From Planktothrix paucivesiculata PCC 9631 (GTDB lineage: Bacteria > Cyanobacteriota > Cyanobacteriia > Cyanobacteriales > Microcoleaceae): a stretch of 55,671 nt of DNA. The position numbers and the translations under genes are program-made. This document shows, in pieces, positions 1 through 8,515 of this stretch. The stretch spans positions 1 through 55,671 of the forward strand of contig NZ_LR735004.1 in NCBI RefSeq assembly GCF_900009265.2, written 5' to 3'. Within the stretch, counting starts at the first letter, position 1; each line of letters starts with the position of its first letter. Below the pieces are notes generated by a model. The model saw only the letters and a list, made by a program, of their open reading frames with translations, was not told where the DNA came from and did no database searches.

Positions 1-14
1 ATTATACACCATCT

Positions 15-42
15 GTAGGGGCGAACGGCCGTTCGCCCCTAC
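15..42. repeat. 28-bp perfect palindrome
   Basis: A perfect palindrome with arm gtaggggcgaacgg. The outer gtagggg arms recur in two other palindromes of this window (17689-17722 and 36228-36261), which have a different centre. This suggests a family of dispersed mobile palindromes rather than a gene-specific terminator. It sits downstream of the minus-strand radical SAM gene that ends at 162. Confidence 0.8.
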
Positions 43-57
43 TAGATATGGTTGTTT

Positions 58-69
58 TGCGTAAGTCCT
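58..69. repeat. Isolated copy of a MITE-like end motif
   Basis: The 12-mer tgcgtaagtcct is the exact reverse complement of aggacttacgca, the left end of the palindromic element at 14486-14598. It is probably a remnant end of the same element family. Confidence 0.4.
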
Positions 70-73
70 GTAT

Positions 74-166
74 AGTAGGGAACAGGGAATACTTCGACTT
101 CGCTCAGTAACAAGGGAATGAGTTTCATGATTTAGAAGTATCCTAACTATAATGCGTAGGACTATA
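74..166 (-). repeat. Degenerate copy of the small inverted-repeat element that breaks the 7.5-8.3 kb gene
   Basis: The stretch ending in aatgcgtag (151-159) aligns with the reverse complement of 7779-7885. Both contain gggaacaggga, then a variable block, then ttcatgatttagaa/ttcaggatttagaa, tcctaact and aatgcgtag. The terminal ctata of this copy overlaps the stop codon (162-164) of the radical SAM gene, so the element abuts or forms the 3' end of that gene. Confidence 0.5.
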
Positions 167-1337
167 ACCCTAAAGAGTTTTCTAATTTATCTAAAATAAT
201 ATCGGTGACAACTTTAATCCGATAACGACAAGCCATGGTTTCACTACAGGCAAAAGTGCCATTTTCCCAATATTTATTACTTCCCGCACCGCCCCCACAC
301 ACTCCAAAATATTCGCAGGTTTCACGACATAATTTAATCCCTTCCTGCATATCGGCATAAATTTTCTGGAATTTTTCCGTGTCACAAACGGACTCAAAAC
401 TATCCGTTAAAACATTCCCTAAAATAAAATTGCCATAGGGTTCAATATTCACTGATAATAATTCGGGGTCAAAGGTAGAAAAATTTCCTTGATAATCAAT
501 ATTAATTAAAACAAAAGGGTTATTCATATCCGTTTGAGTTAAACGGGAATTGGAGTAAATTAAACCACAAATAGCCTCAAACTCTCTGAGGTTAAATTCT
601 CCCTGCACTTCTGAGGTTAATTCCCAAAAACGCTGCATAAATGAGCGATATTTTTCCGATGTCCCCGCGGCTTCTAAAGTTGATGATTGATTTACTCCTT
701 CAATTTCTTCTAAATTAAATCCCACATCATAAATCCCATTGTCCCTAAAAAAATTAAAGATTTCATCAGCATAATTCAGGGAATCTTGAGTAACAACGGA
801 AATCACATAAAAAGGAATATCGTTTTTTTGCAAGAAAGAAATTCCTCGCATAGTTTGGGCGTGACTTCCTGTTCCTTTTCGGGTTTGACGATGGGCGTCA
901 TGAATGAATTCCGGCCCATCTAAACTCACCCCAACACAAATATTATGTTCTTGAATCAAATCACACCATTTTTGATTAATATAAGTGGCGTTGGTTTGAA
1001 CGGAATGCCAGATTTTTGCTTGTTTTTGATTATATTTTTGATCGGTTTCTTGAATTAGTTTAAATGCCGATTCATAAAAAGAAATCGGAACCGCTAAGGG
1101 TTCCCCTGCGTGCCAACAAACGGTAAGCTCATCTCCGACAAAAGGAGAATTAAAGATATTTTTAAAAATAGGTTCTATTAAATCTAAAGAAAGCGTATTT
1201 TTTAAGTCTCGGTTGGGTAAATAACAATAATCACAATTAAGATTACAAAAAGATGTGGCTTGAATGACGACTAAATTAATCGGGCCGAATTGGCTAAGAT
1301 CAATTTTTTGAGGTTTTAATAAAGTTGGATTTGTCAT
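162..1337 (-). CDS. grrM: Radical SAM/SPASM cyclophane-forming peptide maturase (GrrM/OscB type)
   Basis: This 391-aa protein has the radical SAM cluster motif CNLNCDYC (C31, C35, C38) and a C-terminal SPASM-type cysteine set (C337, C341, C347, C364, C370). In the GrrM/OscB family the enzyme uses a SAM-derived radical to join an aromatic side chain to the beta-carbon of a residue two positions on, giving three-residue cyclophanes. The two adjacent Gly-rich precursors with aromatic-X-Asn triads and the divergent binding protein make the family call strong. An in-frame start at 1415 would add 26 residues, but that stretch translates the upstream terminator hairpin, so the ATG at 1337 is preferred. 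Expression probably depends on read-through of the hairpin at 1372-1393. Confidence 0.87.
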   Translation of the reverse strand: MTNPTLLKPQKIDLSQFGPINLVVIQATSFCNLNCDYCYLPNRDLKNTLSLDLIEPIFKNIFNSPFVGDELTVCWHAGEPLAVPISFYESAFKLIQETDQKYNQKQAKIWHSVQTNATYINQKWCDLIQEHNICVGVSLDGPEFIHDAHRQTRKGTGSHAQTMRGISFLQKNDIPFYVISVVTQDSLNYADEIFNFFRDNGIYDVGFNLEEIEGVNQSSTLEAAGTSEKYRSFMQRFWELTSEVQGEFNLREFEAICGLIYSNSRLTQTDMNNPFVLINIDYQGNFSTFDPELLSVNIEPYGNFILGNVLTDSFESVCDTEKFQKIYADMQEGIKLCRETCEYFGVCGGGAGSNKYWENGTFACSETMACRYRIKVVTDIILDKLENSLGL

Positions 1338-1360
1338 TGATTTTAATGAATTTAAAAGTA

Positions 1361-1394
1361 TTAAAAAATTAGCGTTGCTGGAAATCACAACGCC
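1361..1394 (-). terminator. Leaky terminator between precursor and maturase
   Basis: Arms gcgttg (1372-1377) and caacgc (1388-1393) with a 10-nt loop. Read on the minus strand they are followed within a few bases by a T run (complement of 1361-1370). The same hairpin follows the other precursor at 1852-1873. It is likely to make more precursor than maturase transcript. Confidence 0.6.
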
Positions 1395-1415
1395 TTTTAA
1401 GAGAGAGAATAACAT

Positions 1416-1766
1416 CTAACGGATATTCACAAAGCGACCCCCATCACCCCAGCCATTGCGCCAGTTATTCCCATTGCGCCAACTTCCCCCATTTCCCCAG
1501 GAACCCCCGCCACCCCGATTGACCCAGCCTCCCCGTCCCCCGCCATTTCCCCAGGCTCCCCTGGCGATTTGTTCTCCGGGTTGTGGGGTTTCTGATGTTT
1601 CTGGTAATTGGTTTTCTCGCTGTTTTAAAGTTTCTGTAATTCTTGACAAACGAGACTCAATGGTTGTATATTCTGGGGTTTTAACTGTAGCATTAGCCAC
1701 CGGAATATTTAAAGCACTTAGAGCCACGAAAAAGCCAACTAATCCGGTTTTTGTACTAATGTTCAA
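1416..1766 (-). CDS. grrA: Gly-rich RiPP precursor, copy 1 (GrrA/OscA type)
   Basis: This 116-aa peptide starts at a TTG codon preceded by AGGAGT at a suitable distance. Residues 1-26 look like a Sec signal peptide (hydrophobic stretch, end ANA). Residues 27-66 form a conserved leader containing TTIESRLSRIT and RENQLPE. The tail from about residue 70 is Gly/Asn/Arg-rich with seven aromatic-X-N/D triads: WGN72, WVN81, WGN90, WRN96, WRN102, WGD106 and FVN112. Such triads are the known substrates of the adjacent maturase family, so up to seven cyclophanes are possible (inference). The antisense proline-rich frame is a shadow. Confidence 0.87.
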   Translation of the reverse strand: MNISTKTGLVGFFVALSALNIPVANATVKTPEYTTIESRLSRITETLKQRENQLPETSETPQPGEQIARGAWGNGGGRGGWVNRGGGGSWGNGGSWRNGNNWRNGWGDGGRFVNIR

Positions 1767-1840
1767 AAGAGTTACTCCTATTGTTTGATAATTTTTCTGG
1801 CACTATAGCATAATTTTTGATATCAATTGATTTAAAAAGG

Positions 1841-1874
1841 TTAAAAAACTAGCGTTGCTCACGATCACAACGCC
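1841..1874 (-). terminator. Leaky terminator after precursor copy 2
   Basis: Arms gcgttg (1852-1857) and caacgc (1868-1873) with a 10-nt loop, followed on the minus strand by a T-rich run (complement of 1841-1850). It is a near-copy of the hairpin at 1372-1393, and shows that promoter region, gene and terminator were duplicated together with a period of about 470-480 bp. Confidence 0.6.
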
Positions 1875-1915
1875 TTTTTCAAGAGAAGGATGACATCTAA
1901 ACAGGCTAGACAGAA

Positions 1916-2233
1916 CTAACGGGAATTGATAAAGCGACCCCCATCACCCCAACCATTGCGCCAGTTTCCACCACCCCCACGATTGACGAACCCACCCCCA
2001 CCATTCCCCCAGGCTCCAGCGATTTCTTCTCCTGGTTTTAGGGCTTCTGGTTGTTCTGGTAATTGGTTTTCTCGCTCTCTTAGAGTCTTTGTAATTCTTA
2101 ACAAACGGGACTCAATAGTTGTCGAGGCGAGTGCTGAATCTGTGGTTTTAACTGTGGCATTAGCAGCAGGGATATTTAAAGCACTTAGAGCCAAGAAAAA
2201 GCCCACTAATCCAGTTTTTGTACTAATTTTCAA
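1916..2233 (-). CDS. grrA: Gly-rich RiPP precursor, copy 2 (GrrA/OscA type)
   Basis: This 105-aa paralogue of the neighbouring precursor has the same N-terminal signal-like segment and leader. The TTG at 2233 is chosen as start because it aligns with the TTG start of copy 1 and has the same AGGAGT ribosome site; a longer frame reaches 2269. The core has five aromatic-X-N/D triads: WGN75, FVN82, WRN91, WGD95 and FIN101. The second triad has Phe where copy 1 has Trp, and two triads are missing relative to copy 1. It is the promoter-proximal gene, and its upstream region is also repeated before copy 1. Confidence 0.85.
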   Translation of the reverse strand: MKISTKTGLVGFFLALSALNIPAANATVKTTDSALASTTIESRLLRITKTLRERENQLPEQPEALKPGEEIAGAWGNGGGGFVNRGGGGNWRNGWGDGGRFINSR

Positions 2234-2299
2234 AGTGGTTACTCCTTTTTTTGATAATTTTTCTGGCACTATAACATAAATTTTGATATAATGGCGTAT

Positions 2300-2315
2300 G
2301 TTTTCTTGGGAAAAC
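2300..2315. promoter_or_regulatory. Inverted repeat in the divergent grrA/grrP promoter region
   Basis: gttttc (2300-2305) and gaaaac (2310-2315) are separated by 4 bases between the two divergent starts at 2233 and 2341. It is a possible operator; the repeat is short and could be chance. Confidence 0.3.
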
Positions 2316-2340
2316 TTTATTAAAGTTGTGTGAGGAAAAA

Positions 2341-3237
2341 ATGATTTTATCTAAAAAAATTGCGATCGCTGCTTTGAGTGCTGTTTTTTCTCTGGGTCTA
2401 TCAAGTCCGGCTTGGGCAGAAACAGTGATGGAAAAAGTCGCCCGAACCGGGGTATTAACCGCCGGAGTTCAAACAGATTTTATTCCCCTTTCCTATGTGA
2501 ATGATCAGGAAGAATTAGTGGGGTATTCCATTGATATCCTGAATCAAATTAAAGCCCAACTCGCCAAGGAATTAGGACGGGAGATTACTTTAGAACTGGT
2601 TCCTATTAGCATCGGGGAGCGGATTCCTAAAGTATTATCGCGGGATGTTGATATTGTTTGTGAGGATGTGACTTTTACTTGGAATCGTGATCGCTATGTT
2701 GATTTTTCCGTGAGTTATGGGGTGACAGGAACCCGTTTATTAGTTAAAAAAGGCAGTAATTTAGGCACACCCGAATCCTTAGTAAATCGACAAATTGGTG
2801 TATTAGAAAATGGCAGCAGTGAATCAACTATTCGAGTCGTACAACCTCAAGCCAAAATAGTCAAGTTTAAGACTATTGGCGAAGGAATTGCTGCTTTAAA
2901 ACAGGGTCAAATTGATGCTTTTGGTTCCGATGGAGTTCTCTTAGAAGGAACTCGACAAACTCTCCCTGACCGCGATGCTTTAGAAGTAGTTCCAAATCTT
3001 CCCTATACCCGGGAAGGAATTGCTTGTATCGTCCCTGAAAATAATTCTGCTTTTTTAGATCGGGTGAATTATGCGATCGTTAAATTGATGCAAGGTTATG
3101 TTTTAGGGGATAAAGAATCCGTGGCTATTGTTGATCAATGGTTTGGGAAAGATGGTGTGATTACAATAGATAATGATTTAATCAAAAATTATTTTCAAGG
3201 TGTGATTGACTCCCGAGAACAAATCAAACTTAACTAA
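2341..3237 (+). CDS. grrP: Orphan periplasmic substrate-binding protein of GRRM loci (GrrP type)
   Basis: A 298-aa family 3 (amino-acid type) solute-binding protein. Residues 1-26 are a signal peptide ending in AWA. The start at 2341 follows GAGGAAAAA; a TTG five codons upstream is less likely. The mature part has the bilobed SBP features FIPLSYV, GYSIDI, DVTFTWNRDRYVDFS and IGVLENGSS. No permease or ATPase gene is near, which matches the orphan binding protein known to accompany GRRM maturases. It is divergent from the precursor genes. A role in sensing or binding the mature peptide is plausible but not shown. Confidence 0.8.
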   Translation: MILSKKIAIAALSAVFSLGLSSPAWAETVMEKVARTGVLTAGVQTDFIPLSYVNDQEELVGYSIDILNQIKAQLAKELGREITLELVPISIGERIPKVLSRDVDIVCEDVTFTWNRDRYVDFSVSYGVTGTRLLVKKGSNLGTPESLVNRQIGVLENGSSESTIRVVQPQAKIVKFKTIGEGIAALKQGQIDAFGSDGVLLEGTRQTLPDRDALEVVPNLPYTREGIACIVPENNSAFLDRVNYAIVKLMQGYVLGDKESVAIVDQWFGKDGVITIDNDLIKNYFQGVIDSREQIKLN

Positions 3238-3257
3238 GTAGGTGATTATAAAAGTTC

Positions 3258-3316
3258 GTTGTTGCGATGCGGCGCTCTCCAGTTAGGGGGTTTGCAGCAA
3301 CAACAAACTTTTTTAT
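3258..3316 (+). terminator. Putative terminator downstream of the binding protein
   Basis: gttgttgc (3258-3265) pairs with gcaacaac (3297-3304), followed by aaacttttttattt. The large interior (31 nt) makes it less certain. It lies 20 bases after the grrP stop codon. Confidence 0.4.
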
Positions 3317-3360
3317 TTGTTCAAATAATTACGAACATCTACTTACAACTAATAAAAAGC

Positions 3361-3663
3361 ATGAATAAAATTTCACTCTATAATCCCCATGCTGGAGATA
3401 TCTTAGAACATGAATTTTTAGAAGAATTAGGAATTAATCAAAACACTTTGGCATCGGCAATCGATGTTAATTCTAATAAAATTCATGCTATTATAAAGGG
3501 AAAATGTCCGGTTAAGGCTGAGATAGATTTATGCTTATGTCGTTATTTTGGACTTTCAGAAGGATATTTTTTGAGATTACAAAATACCTATGAAATTATG
3601 GAAGCCAAACGAAAATTAGGAGAAAAATTAAATCAGATTAACCCTTATTCCTATAGCCAGTAA
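3361..3663 (+). CDS. higA: HigA-family addiction module antitoxin (XRE-type), orphan
   Basis: A 100-aa helix-turn-helix protein. Residues 9-25 (HAGDILEHEFLEELGI) match the HigA/VapI opening and the HTH follows (QNTLASAIDV, then NKIHAIIKG). The chosen ATG fits the family start; the in-frame upstream extension runs through the intergenic hairpin. HigA antitoxins normally follow a HigB RNase gene, but the 120 bases before it encode no HigB-like peptide, so it looks like a solitary antitoxin or a free regulator. Confidence 0.78.
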   Translation: MNKISLYNPHAGDILEHEFLEELGINQNTLASAIDVNSNKIHAIIKGKCPVKAEIDLCLCRYFGLSEGYFLRLQNTYEIMEAKRKLGEKLNQINPYSYSQ

Positions 3664-3725
3664 ATTCTTGATTGTATATAAGTACCTAAACAAAATTAAT
3701 TACAAATCCTCTACCCAGATCCGGC

Positions 3726-3739
3726 GTTCCCTGTTCCCT
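3726..3739. repeat. Two heptamers of the gttccct repeat
   Basis: Two tandem gttccct units, the short form of the heptameric arrays found at 4218, 7841 and 53225. The 3664-3861 intergenic stretch otherwise shows nothing recognisable except the ribosome site of the next gene. Confidence 0.6.
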
Positions 3740-3861
3740 CTCCCAACTAGGTAATTTATTTTGTGCAACTACTTATAAACAGGGGGTTAGGGGGTATCCA
3801 TCGGGTAACAAATGGCGGTATTATGGAATTTGTAACCACTGAATGATGAGGTGAGCAGAAT

Positions 3862-4068
3862 ATGACGGAACCTAAAAGCGAAAAGTTAACTCGGGCTTTA
3901 AATCAATTAATTGAGGAACATGGAATTAAGAATCTTGTCCATTCTTTAGCCAATCATTGTTTTAAAGAAGCAGAATTTTTGCGACAAGATCGGAGTACAG
4001 ATCTGGCTCAAAATTGGCAAGATATTGCGGAGAAACTACAAAAAGTTATGGAAAATCAGGAATCCTGA
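3862..4068 (+). CDS. Small hypothetical protein
   Basis: A 68-aa acidic, helix-rich protein (SEKLTRALNQLIEEHG near the start). ATG at 3862 is preceded by GAGGTGAGCAGAAT, a good ribosome site. No signal peptide or membrane segment is visible. I do not recognise the function. A hairpin terminator follows at 4143. Confidence 0.65.
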   Translation: MTEPKSEKLTRALNQLIEEHGIKNLVHSLANHCFKEAEFLRQDRSTDLAQNWQDIAEKLQKVMENQES

Positions 4069-4142
4069 TGGTGATGTGGCAATCTTAAATAGATTGTAAT
4101 ATCTTATTGTAAGTTTTTGCAGTTGAAACCCTTTTCAGGCTT

Positions 4143-4175
4143 GGGGTTTAGAAACCAAACCCCTACAGTTTTTTC
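4143..4175 (+). terminator. Rho-independent terminator
   Basis: ggggttt (4143-4149) and aaacccc (4157-4163) form a 7-bp stem with a 7-nt loop, followed by tacagttttttc. It terminates the small gene ending at 4068. Confidence 0.7.
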
Positions 4176-4217
4176 ATTTATTTAATTAAACCTAGATAGT
4201 ACAATCTTTTCCTCCCT

Positions 4218-4280
4218 ATTCGCTATTCCCTATTCGCTATTCGCTATTCCCTATTCCCTGTTCCCTGTTCCCTGTTCCCT
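4218..4280. repeat. Heptameric short tandem repeat array (STRR-like), 9 units
   Basis: Nine consecutive 7-mers drawn from attcgct, attccct and gttccct, ending 8 bases before the next start codon. Heptameric tandem repeats of this kind are well known between cyanobacterial genes. Here the array occupies the leader of the SLH gene. Confidence 0.85.
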
Positions 4281-4288
4281 TATATAAT

Positions 4289-6595
4289 ATGACCAGTTCA
4301 CAACCGTTGTTTTCAGATATTAGCCAACATTGGGCGCGTCCTTTTATTCAACGTTTGCAAGCTCAAGGTTTAATTAGTGGATTTAAAGATAATACATTTC
4401 GCCCCGATCAAAATCTAACTCGGGGGGAATTTGCAGCTATTTTAAAAGTGGCATTTCCCACTTCTATTAAACGTGAATATATTCCCTTTAAAGACGTTTC
4501 CGAGGAGTTTTGGGCGGCGGAAGCGATTAAAACCGCCTATGAATCTGGCTTTATTTCGGGGTTCCCTGATGGACACTTTCTTCCTCAAAGTCCGGTGACT
4601 CGCTTACAGGTATTATTAGCATTGGTATCAGGTTTAAACTTACCCACAGGAAAGAGTTTAAACCTAAAATATATTTACGATGATGGCGATAAAATTCCTG
4701 AATATGCAACTCAAGCTATGATCACCGCAACGAGTGCTGAATTAGTGGTTAATTATCCTCATCCCCAAATTTTTAATCCTAATTCTAATGCAACTCGGGG
4801 AGAAGTGGTTAGTATTATTTATCAGGCTTTAGTATTACTAAAAAAAGCCAATCCGATTATTTCTCAATATATTGTCTCCTTAGCTAAAACCGGAATTATT
4901 AAAACGGGAACCCATCTTTCTGTAAATGGGAGAAAATGGAAATTACCCTGGAGTCAATGGAGTTCAGGAATTGCTACAAATACCGGAATTAGTGATAAGG
5001 GAATTATGCAAGTTTTAGGAATTAATCCCTTAAATACAACAGAAGCTAGTCTTCAACCTTTGAGTTGGTTTGCTGTACATTCAACTCCGGGGACTTTTTT
5101 TGATGCCGAATATCGTTATGTGAAAATTGATCAATTAGCGGAATTATCAGCCTGGGATTTGGAAATTCAAGAAAATACACTTAATATTATTTCTAAAATT
5201 GGCATTGTTCAAACCCTAAACTTTGAGGAACGTGCTAATATTTCCCAAATGACAATAACCTTAAATCAACCGACTCCCTGGGAACTCTATCAACAGAATA
5301 CTCAATGGGAAGTGGTGGTCGATGCAACAACAAATCCAACTATTGCCAAACCCTTTCAAGAACAATCTCAACCCACACCTAATTCTGGAACTTCTGAACA
5401 ACAAAACGAAGGAGAAACCGCAGTAACAACTCAAAAAACCTCCCGTCCTCTGGTAAAAATTGTGAATAATCAAACCGTGATTCAAGGAACTTTGCCCGAT
5501 GGTTATGGGGTAAAAGTTTCTACCTTGAATAATCCCAATCGGATTGTAGTTGAATTGCGCCAAGATCCCTTAATTGAACGGGATATTACCTGGGCAAAAG
5601 GATTACGTTGGCGACAACAATATATGACTTTAAATAATAGCCGTTTTCCCGTGGTTTGGTTAACTATAAATCCTGATTTTGGCTTGAATTTACGACCGAT
5701 TTGGGCAAGTCAAACGGGAATGAAAGGTATTGACAGTTTAGCCAAAACCGTTGATAATATTCAATGTTTAGGGGCAATTAATGCCGGATATTTTAACCGG
5801 AATAATCTTTTACCTTTAGGAGCAATTCGCCGGGAAAATCAATGGTTTTCAGGGCCAATTTTAAACCGAGGTGCGATCGCTTGGAATGATTCGGGACAGT
5901 TCAAAATTGCTCGTTTAAGTTTAAAAGAAACCTTAATGACCTCATCGGGACAGACCTTAGAGTGTGAATTACTTAATACCGGATATGTGAAAGCGGGTAT
6001 TGCTCGTTATACTCCTGAATGGGGCGAAAGTTATACCCCCTTAACGGCAAATGAAATTCTAATTGTGGTAGAAAATAATATTGTTAAACAACAAGTGGAA
6101 CTCACGAATACAACCACCACCATTCCTATTCCTAAAACCGGTTATTTATTAACTTTGCGATCTTTTCGGAGTGTTTTAAGTTCGTTTTCTGTGGGGACAT
6201 CTATTCAAATTCAATCCCAAACTACCCCATCGGATTTTAATTCCTTTCCCCATATTTTAGGCGGGGGGCCATTATTATTACAAAACAGCCAGGTGGTGGT
6301 AGATGCGATCGCGGAAGGGTTTAGTCCCGCCTTTGCCGATCAGTCGGCCATTCGTAGCGGCGTGGGAATCACCGCCAAGGGCGAATGGATCATCGCCACC
6401 GTCCATAACCGCGTCGGAGGGGTGGGGGCCAAATTAACCGAAATGGCGCTCTTAATGGGGCAGTTAGGAGCCACAGATGCGCTAAATTTAGACGGGGGAA
6501 GTTCGACAAATTTAGTTTTAGGGGGTCAACTTTTAAACCGTATCCCCGATACCGCCGCCCCAGTTCACAATGGTTTAGGGGTATTTCGGCGCTAA
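4289..6595 (+). CDS. SLH-domain protein with C-terminal phosphodiester glycosidase (NAGPA) domain
   Basis: A 768-aa protein. The N-terminus carries three SLH-type segments (about residues 8-50, 65-115 and 125-185: FSDISQHWARPFI, FKDVSEEFWAAEAI and a degenerate third) that would bind the cell envelope. A middle region (about 400-460) resembles an AMIN-like beta domain. The C-terminal third has the NAGPA fold signatures NAGYFN, GVGI and NLDGGSSTNL (about 733-742), the family that cleaves GlcNAc-phosphodiester bonds. From the ATG used there is no signal peptide, odd for a surface protein, and no good ribosome site because a heptamer array fills the leader. The true start could lie a little downstream or export could be atypical. 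Confidence 0.82.
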   Translation: MTSSQPLFSDISQHWARPFIQRLQAQGLISGFKDNTFRPDQNLTRGEFAAILKVAFPTSIKREYIPFKDVSEEFWAAEAIKTAYESGFISGFPDGHFLPQSPVTRLQVLLALVSGLNLPTGKSLNLKYIYDDGDKIPEYATQAMITATSAELVVNYPHPQIFNPNSNATRGEVVSIIYQALVLLKKANPIISQYIVSLAKTGIIKTGTHLSVNGRKWKLPWSQWSSGIATNTGISDKGIMQVLGINPLNTTEASLQPLSWFAVHSTPGTFFDAEYRYVKIDQLAELSAWDLEIQENTLNIISKIGIVQTLNFEERANISQMTITLNQPTPWELYQQNTQWEVVVDATTNPTIAKPFQEQSQPTPNSGTSEQQNEGETAVTTQKTSRPLVKIVNNQTVIQGTLPDGYGVKVSTLNNPNRIVVELRQDPLIERDITWAKGLRWRQQYMTLNNSRFPVVWLTINPDFGLNLRPIWASQTGMKGIDSLAKTVDNIQCLGAINAGYFNRNNLLPLGAIRRENQWFSGPILNRGAIAWNDSGQFKIARLSLKETLMTSSGQTLECELLNTGYVKAGIARYTPEWGESYTPLTANEILIVVENNIVKQQVELTNTTTTIPIPKTGYLLTLRSFRSVLSSFSVGTSIQIQSQTTPSDFNSFPHILGGGPLLLQNSQVVVDAIAEGFSPAFADQSAIRSGVGITAKGEWIIATVHNRVGGVGAKLTEMALLMGQLGATDALNLDGGSSTNLVLGGQLLNRIPDTAAPVHNGLGVFRR

Positions 6596-7507: not shown

Positions 7508-7778
7508 TAGGAATTTAACTATTAATTGGAATCAGGGGACGTTGACCAGCTTTAAACTGTTTCCAGGCTGTTTTAAGTTGAGTTGGCGCAGGATAATTGC
7601 GATCATAAATCACAATCACATTCGCTAAATTTCGCCCTGGATTAATATAAATATCTCCGTGATAAGCTAACCCTTCCGACGCACCGCCATCTAAATTCAT
7701 CGCTTCATAACATCCAATGGCTTTCATCACTTCCGCTTCTTGTTGCAATGTTGATTCCATTCTGGCTTTCCTTCGAGT

Positions 7779-7885
7779 CTATAGCGCTACGCATTACAGT
7801 TAGGACATTTCTAAATCCTGAAACCCTTTCACTTCTTACTGTTCCCTGTTCCCTGTTCCCTGTTCCCTTGCGCGTAGCGCTATAG
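7779..7885. mobile_element. MITE-like 107-bp element with 14-bp terminal inverted repeats
   Basis: Perfect inverted ends ctatagcgctacgc (7779-7792) and gcgtagcgctatag (7872-7885). The interior holds four gttccct heptamers (7841-7868). It interrupts a glycosidase gene. A degenerate relative lies at about 74-166 next to the maturase gene. There is no coding capacity, so mobilisation would need a transposase in trans. Confidence 0.75.
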
Positions 7886-8277
7886 CAGTAATCATTTCCG
7901 GTCGATTTCCCGCTTTTAACCCTAACGTTGTCCAAAAATTCTCCCAACGACTATATTTTAAAAATTTGCCTTCCCCAACCATATTTCCCATGACTCGTTT
8001 TTCAGCATCTTTACTAAAAAAAGTGCCATTCGCAACGACCGCCGCCGGATACCGTTTGACAAAGTTTGTGAAAGATTCATCTCCGAAAGATTTTTGACTA
8101 CTATTCGCTTGAGGTGCGTTATTCGCTAATCCAATAGTTATCAAATTTTCAGGATCAGTTAAATTAATAATGGTTTGATAGAAGGAAATTCCAAACAGAT
8201 TTTTCTGAAGAATTTTTACAGGTTGTATTGAATTTAATGAAATATTAGAAGGGTTAGGGCTAGGAGAATAATAAAAA

Positions 8278-8290
8278 GGTGCGTCGCACC
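8278..8290. repeat. Short palindrome ggtgcgtcgcacc
   Basis: A 6-bp stem around a single base, located where the glycosidase pseudogene lacks its expected signal peptide. It may be the end of another inserted repeat. The rest of 8313-8515 shows no recognisable element beyond the AAAGGA ribosome site before 8516. Confidence 0.35.
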
Positions 8291-8515
8291 ATCGTTTGGC
8301 AACCTTTAGCATTAGGCATATTTTTTAATCAGGTTTGAAAGTTACACCAGAACCCTATAATTAAATTATAAAGCTAAAAGTAGGCTAGAGAACCCAACGT
8401 CCCTTGATTTCTTTTGAAGTTTTAGATTTTCTCTAACTTTTCTTGGGAATGGTTTTCGCCGACATTTAACACGCAGAGTGGGTCTTGTCTCTACGGTAGA
8501 AAGGAATAATCAAAA

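Follow-up and report, generated by a model that had tools for sequence, protein, structure and literature searches.

The window analysed here, the whole 55,671-nucleotide stretch from Planktothrix paucivesiculata PCC 9631, very probably carries a GrrA/GrrM/GrrP locus of the OscA/OscB (triceptide) type with two long-standing precursor paralogues. Comparison with relatives indicates that a whole promoter-ORF-terminator unit was duplicated before the lineages of the four Planktothrix-type genomes compared here diverged, which would make the pair old rather than fresh. It is the leaders, not the duplication, that look recent, and gene conversion would be the simplest explanation. The families found at this locus and the chemistry expected of them have already been described, and it is an ordinary member of a known RiPP family.

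Gene content and organization of the locus

Transcription on the minus strand runs from the five-triad precursor through a hairpin to the seven-triad precursor, a second hairpin and grrM. All four genes score above the curated NCBIfam cut-offs of their families, GrrA/OscA1, GrrM/OscB and GrrP (Table 1). The preliminary description had reported two paralogous precursors with seven and five aromatic-X-Asn/Asp triads beside a GrrM/OscB-type cyclophane maturase. Both precursors correspond to ORFs whose family scores argue against chance, and the maturase has, in addition to its score, the radical SAM CxxxCxxC motif (CNLNCDYC). The grrP gene, absent from that description, lies near grrM and completes the three-gene family set. 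A search of the window's genome returned no GrrA match beyond the two precursors and no second GrrM over the cut-off. One GrrM enzyme probably serves both precursors, as had been proposed.

Table 1. Features of the grr locus in window coordinates
Feature	Position	Strand	Basis
grrM/oscB, radical SAM/SPASM cyclophane-forming maturase, 391 aa	162..1337	-	TIGR04261, 629.1 bits (cut-off 310)
Terminator-like hairpin between seven-triad precursor and grrM	1371..1394	-	8-pair stem, T run
grrA copy, seven triads, 116 aa, TTG start	1416..1766	-	TIGR04260, 84.9 bits (cut-off 31)
AGGAGT ribosome-binding site, seven-triad copy	1774..1779	-	sequence
TATAGT, -10-like, upstream of seven-triad copy	1802..1807	-	by eye; absent from promoter scan
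Terminator-like hairpin after five-triad copy	1851..1874	-	8-pair stem, T run
grrA copy, five triads, 105 aa, TTG start	1916..2233	-	TIGR04260, 61.7 bits (cut-off 31; scanned as 1916-2269)
AGGAGT ribosome-binding site, five-triad copy	2241..2246	-	sequence
TATAGT, -10-like, upstream of five-triad copy	2268..2273	-	by eye; absent from promoter scan
grrP, orphan periplasmic amino-acid-binding-like protein, divergent from precursors	2341..3237	+	TIGR04262, 274.7 bits (cut-off 190)

The identical TTG starts and the duplicated flanking hairpins noticed earlier hold up. In both precursors the TTG lies 7 bases after AGGAGT (P. rubescens has AGGATT at this place in the five-triad copy). The ORF list starts the five-triad gene at a GTG at 2269; the TTG at 2233 is the start conserved in relatives. 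Similarly, a longer ORF would start grrM at 1415, but of five relatives read, four have stops immediately before the position matching 1337. Both hairpins consist of an eight-pair stem (G-T pairs counted), an eight-base loop and a T run, the stems being identical and the loops different. Their folding z-scores are -3.35 (1371-1394) and -2.79 (1851-1874), with 0/200 and 4/200 shuffles folding as well, and they top the list of eight terminator-like sites found in positions 1-3400 (shuffle mean 3.5, sd 2.7). Since no Rfam family matched window positions 1-6000 at gathering score, we interpret the hairpins as terminators rather than members of a described RNA class. The one before grrM may limit read-through into the maturase gene, an arrangement that would fit much precursor and little enzyme. 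A sigma-70 promoter scan did no better than shuffled sequence (9 sites against a mean of 8.9) and was not used.

Outside the grr genes, the window encodes a HigA-family antitoxin at 3361-3663 on the plus strand (72.6 bits, cut-off 47.7); none of the neighbouring ORFs scanned to its left and right was recognisable as a toxin. Short TTCCCTG/TTCCCTA-like repeat runs occur at 3721-3750, 4200-4282 and about 7830-7950. The last of these, inferred from ORF translations, lies at the end of the minus-strand ORF 7836-8312, whose likely continuation is 7515-7760, and the repeat may interrupt a gene.

Age of the duplication and history of the leader

We compared the precursors segment by segment in the four genomes holding both copies; the precursors of G001, G004, G005 and G007 are those of L033, L032, L059 and L031 and were not counted twice. 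In the 5' region the p-distance between paralogues is 0.245, compared with 0.119 and 0.120 between orthologues of the five- and seven-triad copies. The corresponding values are 0.173 versus 0.071 and 0.094 for the core, and 0.284 versus 0.158 and 0.201 for the 3' region. In other words, in the 5' region, the core and the 3' hairpin each copy is nearer to its counterparts elsewhere than to its sister, and the duplication therefore predates the split of the four Planktothrix-type genomes. The signal-peptide segment behaves differently, its paralogue distance of 0.131 being little above the orthologue values (0.111 and 0.090), and in the leader helix the contrast is nearly gone (0.144 versus 0.138 and 0.119).

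The preliminary description had taken the duplication to be recent and to involve the whole unit. The second part stands, the promoter, ORF and terminator having apparently been duplicated together. The first does not, as the alignment of relatives' precursor copies that had been proposed as a check groups the segments outside the leader by copy and not by genome.

The similarity of the leaders is most pronounced in Oscillatoriales cyanobacterium CG2_30_40_61 (L031), where only 3 of 108 sites separate the leader helices of the two copies, whereas the 5' region, signal peptide and core taken together have 49 differences in 268 sites (Fisher P = 2.3e-5, an optimistic value, as the segment was noticed before being tested). 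The other three genomes have 22, 23 and 14 differences in the same 108 sites, so that the strong case comes from one genome of four. We suggest that the cores have since been kept distinct by purifying selection, whereas the leaders may at times be homogenised by gene conversion. The whole-protein tree recovers the five-triad copies as a clade (85/89) but not the seven-triad ones; mixed histories would give such a pattern, and the tree alone is no proof of an old split. Among the open-licence papers searched we found none combining gene conversion with the RiPP leader/core division.

The precursor pair in Planktothrix relatives

The combination of a five-triad and a seven-triad precursor is also present in L031, L032 (Planktothrix sp. 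PCC 11201) and L033 (P. rubescens PCC 7821), which are among the nearest loci and whose GrrM and GrrP are 94-95% and 93-96% identical to those of the window. Two relatives have lost the pair. UBA8402 has one precursor, in which the 5' part and a 'KTTDSA' insert resemble the five-triad copy and the core is that of the seven-triad copy, a mosaic that recombination between the copies would produce. In G009 an intact seven-triad gene is preceded by a stretch of 18 codons, all that is left of the five-triad copy. Because both retain only one precursor, one seems to be enough for them.

Among the nine genomes of the genus compared with that of the window, five have the same cluster type (GrrM 94-96%, GrrP 93-96% identical); the grrM of G005 is split between two contigs, and one of its parts is 93% identical. 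Three others (G002, G003 and G006) have a different grr cluster, with GrrM at 68% and GrrP at 50-51%, and G008 had no GrrA or GrrM match. This second type, also found in L035, is like the window in having grrM, grrA and grrP, but it has a single six-triad precursor that is apparently ATG-started. A gene located near the grr genes in the window is 81-83% identical in G002, G003 and G006, where it lies on another contig than the grr cluster. Together these patterns suggest exchange or acquisition of the cluster as a whole.

Tandem precursors across the family

To the window we added 49 fetched loci with GrrM, and an iterated profile identified 48 GrrA ORFs. At least one GrrA is present in 33 of the 50 loci and two or three in 13 of them; precursor and grrP counts are lower bounds, as several fetched loci end at contig edges. 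With the window set aside, 12 of the 49 loci have tandem precursors, and in 11 of these 12 (12 of 13 with the window) the triad counts are unequal, the exception being the 4/4/4 triplet of L047. The survey thus identifies tandem precursors with unequal triads as a recurring trait of the family. Other cyanobacterial GrrA/GrrM/GrrP loci resemble that of the window in gene set, leader motif and the occurrence of tandem precursors, but differ in triad number (3 to 12) and in copy number (one to three). Triads were counted with the overlapping pattern [WFY]x[ND]; over a different stretch the L065 and L066 copies have one or two triads more, and the partial L051 three instead of six. Five of the 48 ORFs (L035, the first L048 copy, both L063 copies and L051) did not fit the motif pattern and were left out of the tree and of the leader/core split, their triads being counted over the whole ORF.

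In the GrrA tree, which carries long-branch warnings, copies pair within the genome in L056, L065, L066 and L048 (where one of three copies was excluded), as separate duplications would give. A search of 118 genomes, the window's included, found a GrrA match in 19, 17 of them over the cut-off; nine of the 19 have at least two matches, not all side by side.

Eight Microcystis loci (L037, L038, L040, L041, L042, L044, L060 and L074), four of which were inspected ORF by ORF, have grrM and no GrrA in the fetched flank. We considered whether these might be orphan maturases, but GrrA is present elsewhere in all eight genomes, on another contig than grrM in L044 and L060. A search of the 12 genomes that had supplied loci with no GrrA match found GrrA in 10, these eight included. 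Some unusual relatives were also seen. In Microcystis novacekii (the L040 genome, G120:C290:22246-22706) the GrrA match is in two pieces of 36.4 and 25.6 bits, the weaker with an internal TAG, which may point to a disrupted gene. The GrrA-like ORF at L071:4261-4581, close to a GrrM homologue in a Pseudanabaenales assembly, has a core of repeated Phe-Asp-Asp instead of Gly-rich triads, and its branch in the tree is very long. In a Rhodospirillales assembly, a short ORF just upstream of a GrrM relative (45%) ends in the triads WRD, FSN, WPN and FRN (L073:5453-5896) and was missed by the GrrA profile.

Predicted chemistry, export and closest known systems

Both precursors have several aromatic-X-Asn/Asp triads within a Gly-rich C-terminus, in the order WGN, WVN, WGN, WRN, WRN, WGD, FVN in the seven-triad copy and WGN, FVN, WRN, WGD, FIN in the five-triad copy. 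The Trp to Phe swap reported earlier is indeed there, at the second triad. In a review's account of the OscA/OscB study of Nguyen et al. (2020, Nat. Chem.), OscB (OIP69445.1) joins Trp C7 to the beta-carbon of the Asn or Asp two residues on, and Phe C4 to that of the Asn two residues on (PMC11002830). Another review describes the enzymes of the same study as installing single or multiple cyclophanes (PMC10304443). The latter, citing the same 2020 paper, also describes the lsc cluster in Lyngbya sp. PCC 8106, which measures 2.6 kb; as a small cyanobacterial cluster making cyclophane peptides, that system is like the one predicted for the window (PMC10304443).

Since the window's triads have Trp with Asn or Asp and Phe with Asn, they fit the scope reported for OscB. 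The OscA/OscB system and the window have the NCBIfam precursor and maturase families and these triad types in common; the sequences differ between strains. OIP69445.1 presumably comes from the CG2_30 assemblies (CG2_30_40_61). If so, the published OscB comes from this very locus type, the GrrM of L031 being 95% identical to that of the window.

Each precursor has a signal-peptide-like N-terminus, a conserved and probably helical leader segment (around TIESRLSRIT) and the Gly-rich core. GrrM would recognise the leader common to both and, by analogy with OscB, link the aromatic ring to the Asn/Asp beta-carbon in each triad. The two products are predicted to carry at most seven and five three-residue cyclophanes, lowering their masses by as much as 14 and 10 Da, and presumably belong to the triceptide class, in which a C-C bond connects the aromatic ring of residue i with the beta-carbon of residue i+2.

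A signal-peptide-like leader was found in 45 of the 48 GrrA ORFs by a crude pattern (not a trained predictor), and a cleavage-site-like ANA|T occurs within GrrA leaders. The PDB relatives of GrrP are periplasmic amino-acid-binding proteins (best match E 1.8e-24), and its NCBIfam runner-up is the glutamate/aspartate-binding family. None of the seven ORFs scanned from 162 to 6595 was recognisable as a transporter gene. A GrrP relative lies near grrM in at least 27 of the 49 loci, a lower bound given that some loci are cut off by contig ends. It is on the same strand as grrM in 17 of the 27 and on the opposite strand, as in the window, in 10, eight of which also have grrP upstream like the window. 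The cyclophane peptides, made in the cytoplasm, would probably be exported by Sec and cut near ANA|T, and might then meet GrrP in the periplasm.

Possible reasons for keeping two precursors

The five-ring and seven-ring peptides might act together as a two-component product and be kept as a matched set. Both cores are conserved and distinct in four genomes, and another type of pair keeps its position in L034, L036 and L039, whose records are assigned to three families (support 100/99 and 100/98). However, UBA8402 and G009 manage with the seven-triad core, and a single GrrA is present in 20 of the 33 GrrA-bearing loci, although contig edges can hide others. We therefore consider a two-component product rather unlikely.

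Less credible still is that the five-triad copy is superfluous and in the course of being lost. The remnant in G009 and the mosaic single gene of UBA8402 are what such decay might leave behind, but all four genomes holding the copy keep its five triads, with a pooled dN/dS of 0.20. The value for the seven-triad copies is 0.18, and such ratios suggest purifying selection on both.

A recent duplication, with a core now gaining and losing triads, is very improbable. Leaders and flanks are highly similar inside the window, and among the fetched loci triad counts do vary, between 3 and 12. The turnover suggested earlier is nevertheless not seen in the window's clade, where triad number, position and order are fixed in 4/4 five-triad and 6/6 seven-triad copies read and residue changes inside triads affect the middle position; moreover, dS between orthologues of one copy already amounts to 0.13-0.43, and the non-leader segments group by copy. 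Finally, signal-peptide-like leaders and Gly-rich repeats could also mark secreted structural proteins with incidental or partly modified triads, but the conservation of triads in the clade and the OscB modification of Trp/Phe triads, as the review reports it, make this the most far-fetched of the readings.

Returning to the old pair with its younger leaders, one might see in GrrA precursor pairs two products that are kept together: the leaders, recognised by a single maturase, would evolve in concert through gene conversion, the cores would be selected apart, and the two ring ladders would act as a set. We offer this tentatively and regard it as doubtful. Be that as it may, the locus is a natural test of one peptide-stapling enzyme facing substrates of different ring count. 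The contrast between leader and core is the only part of it worth following. It hints at how RiPP loci with multiple precursors may keep their substrates readable by the enzyme and their cores distinct.
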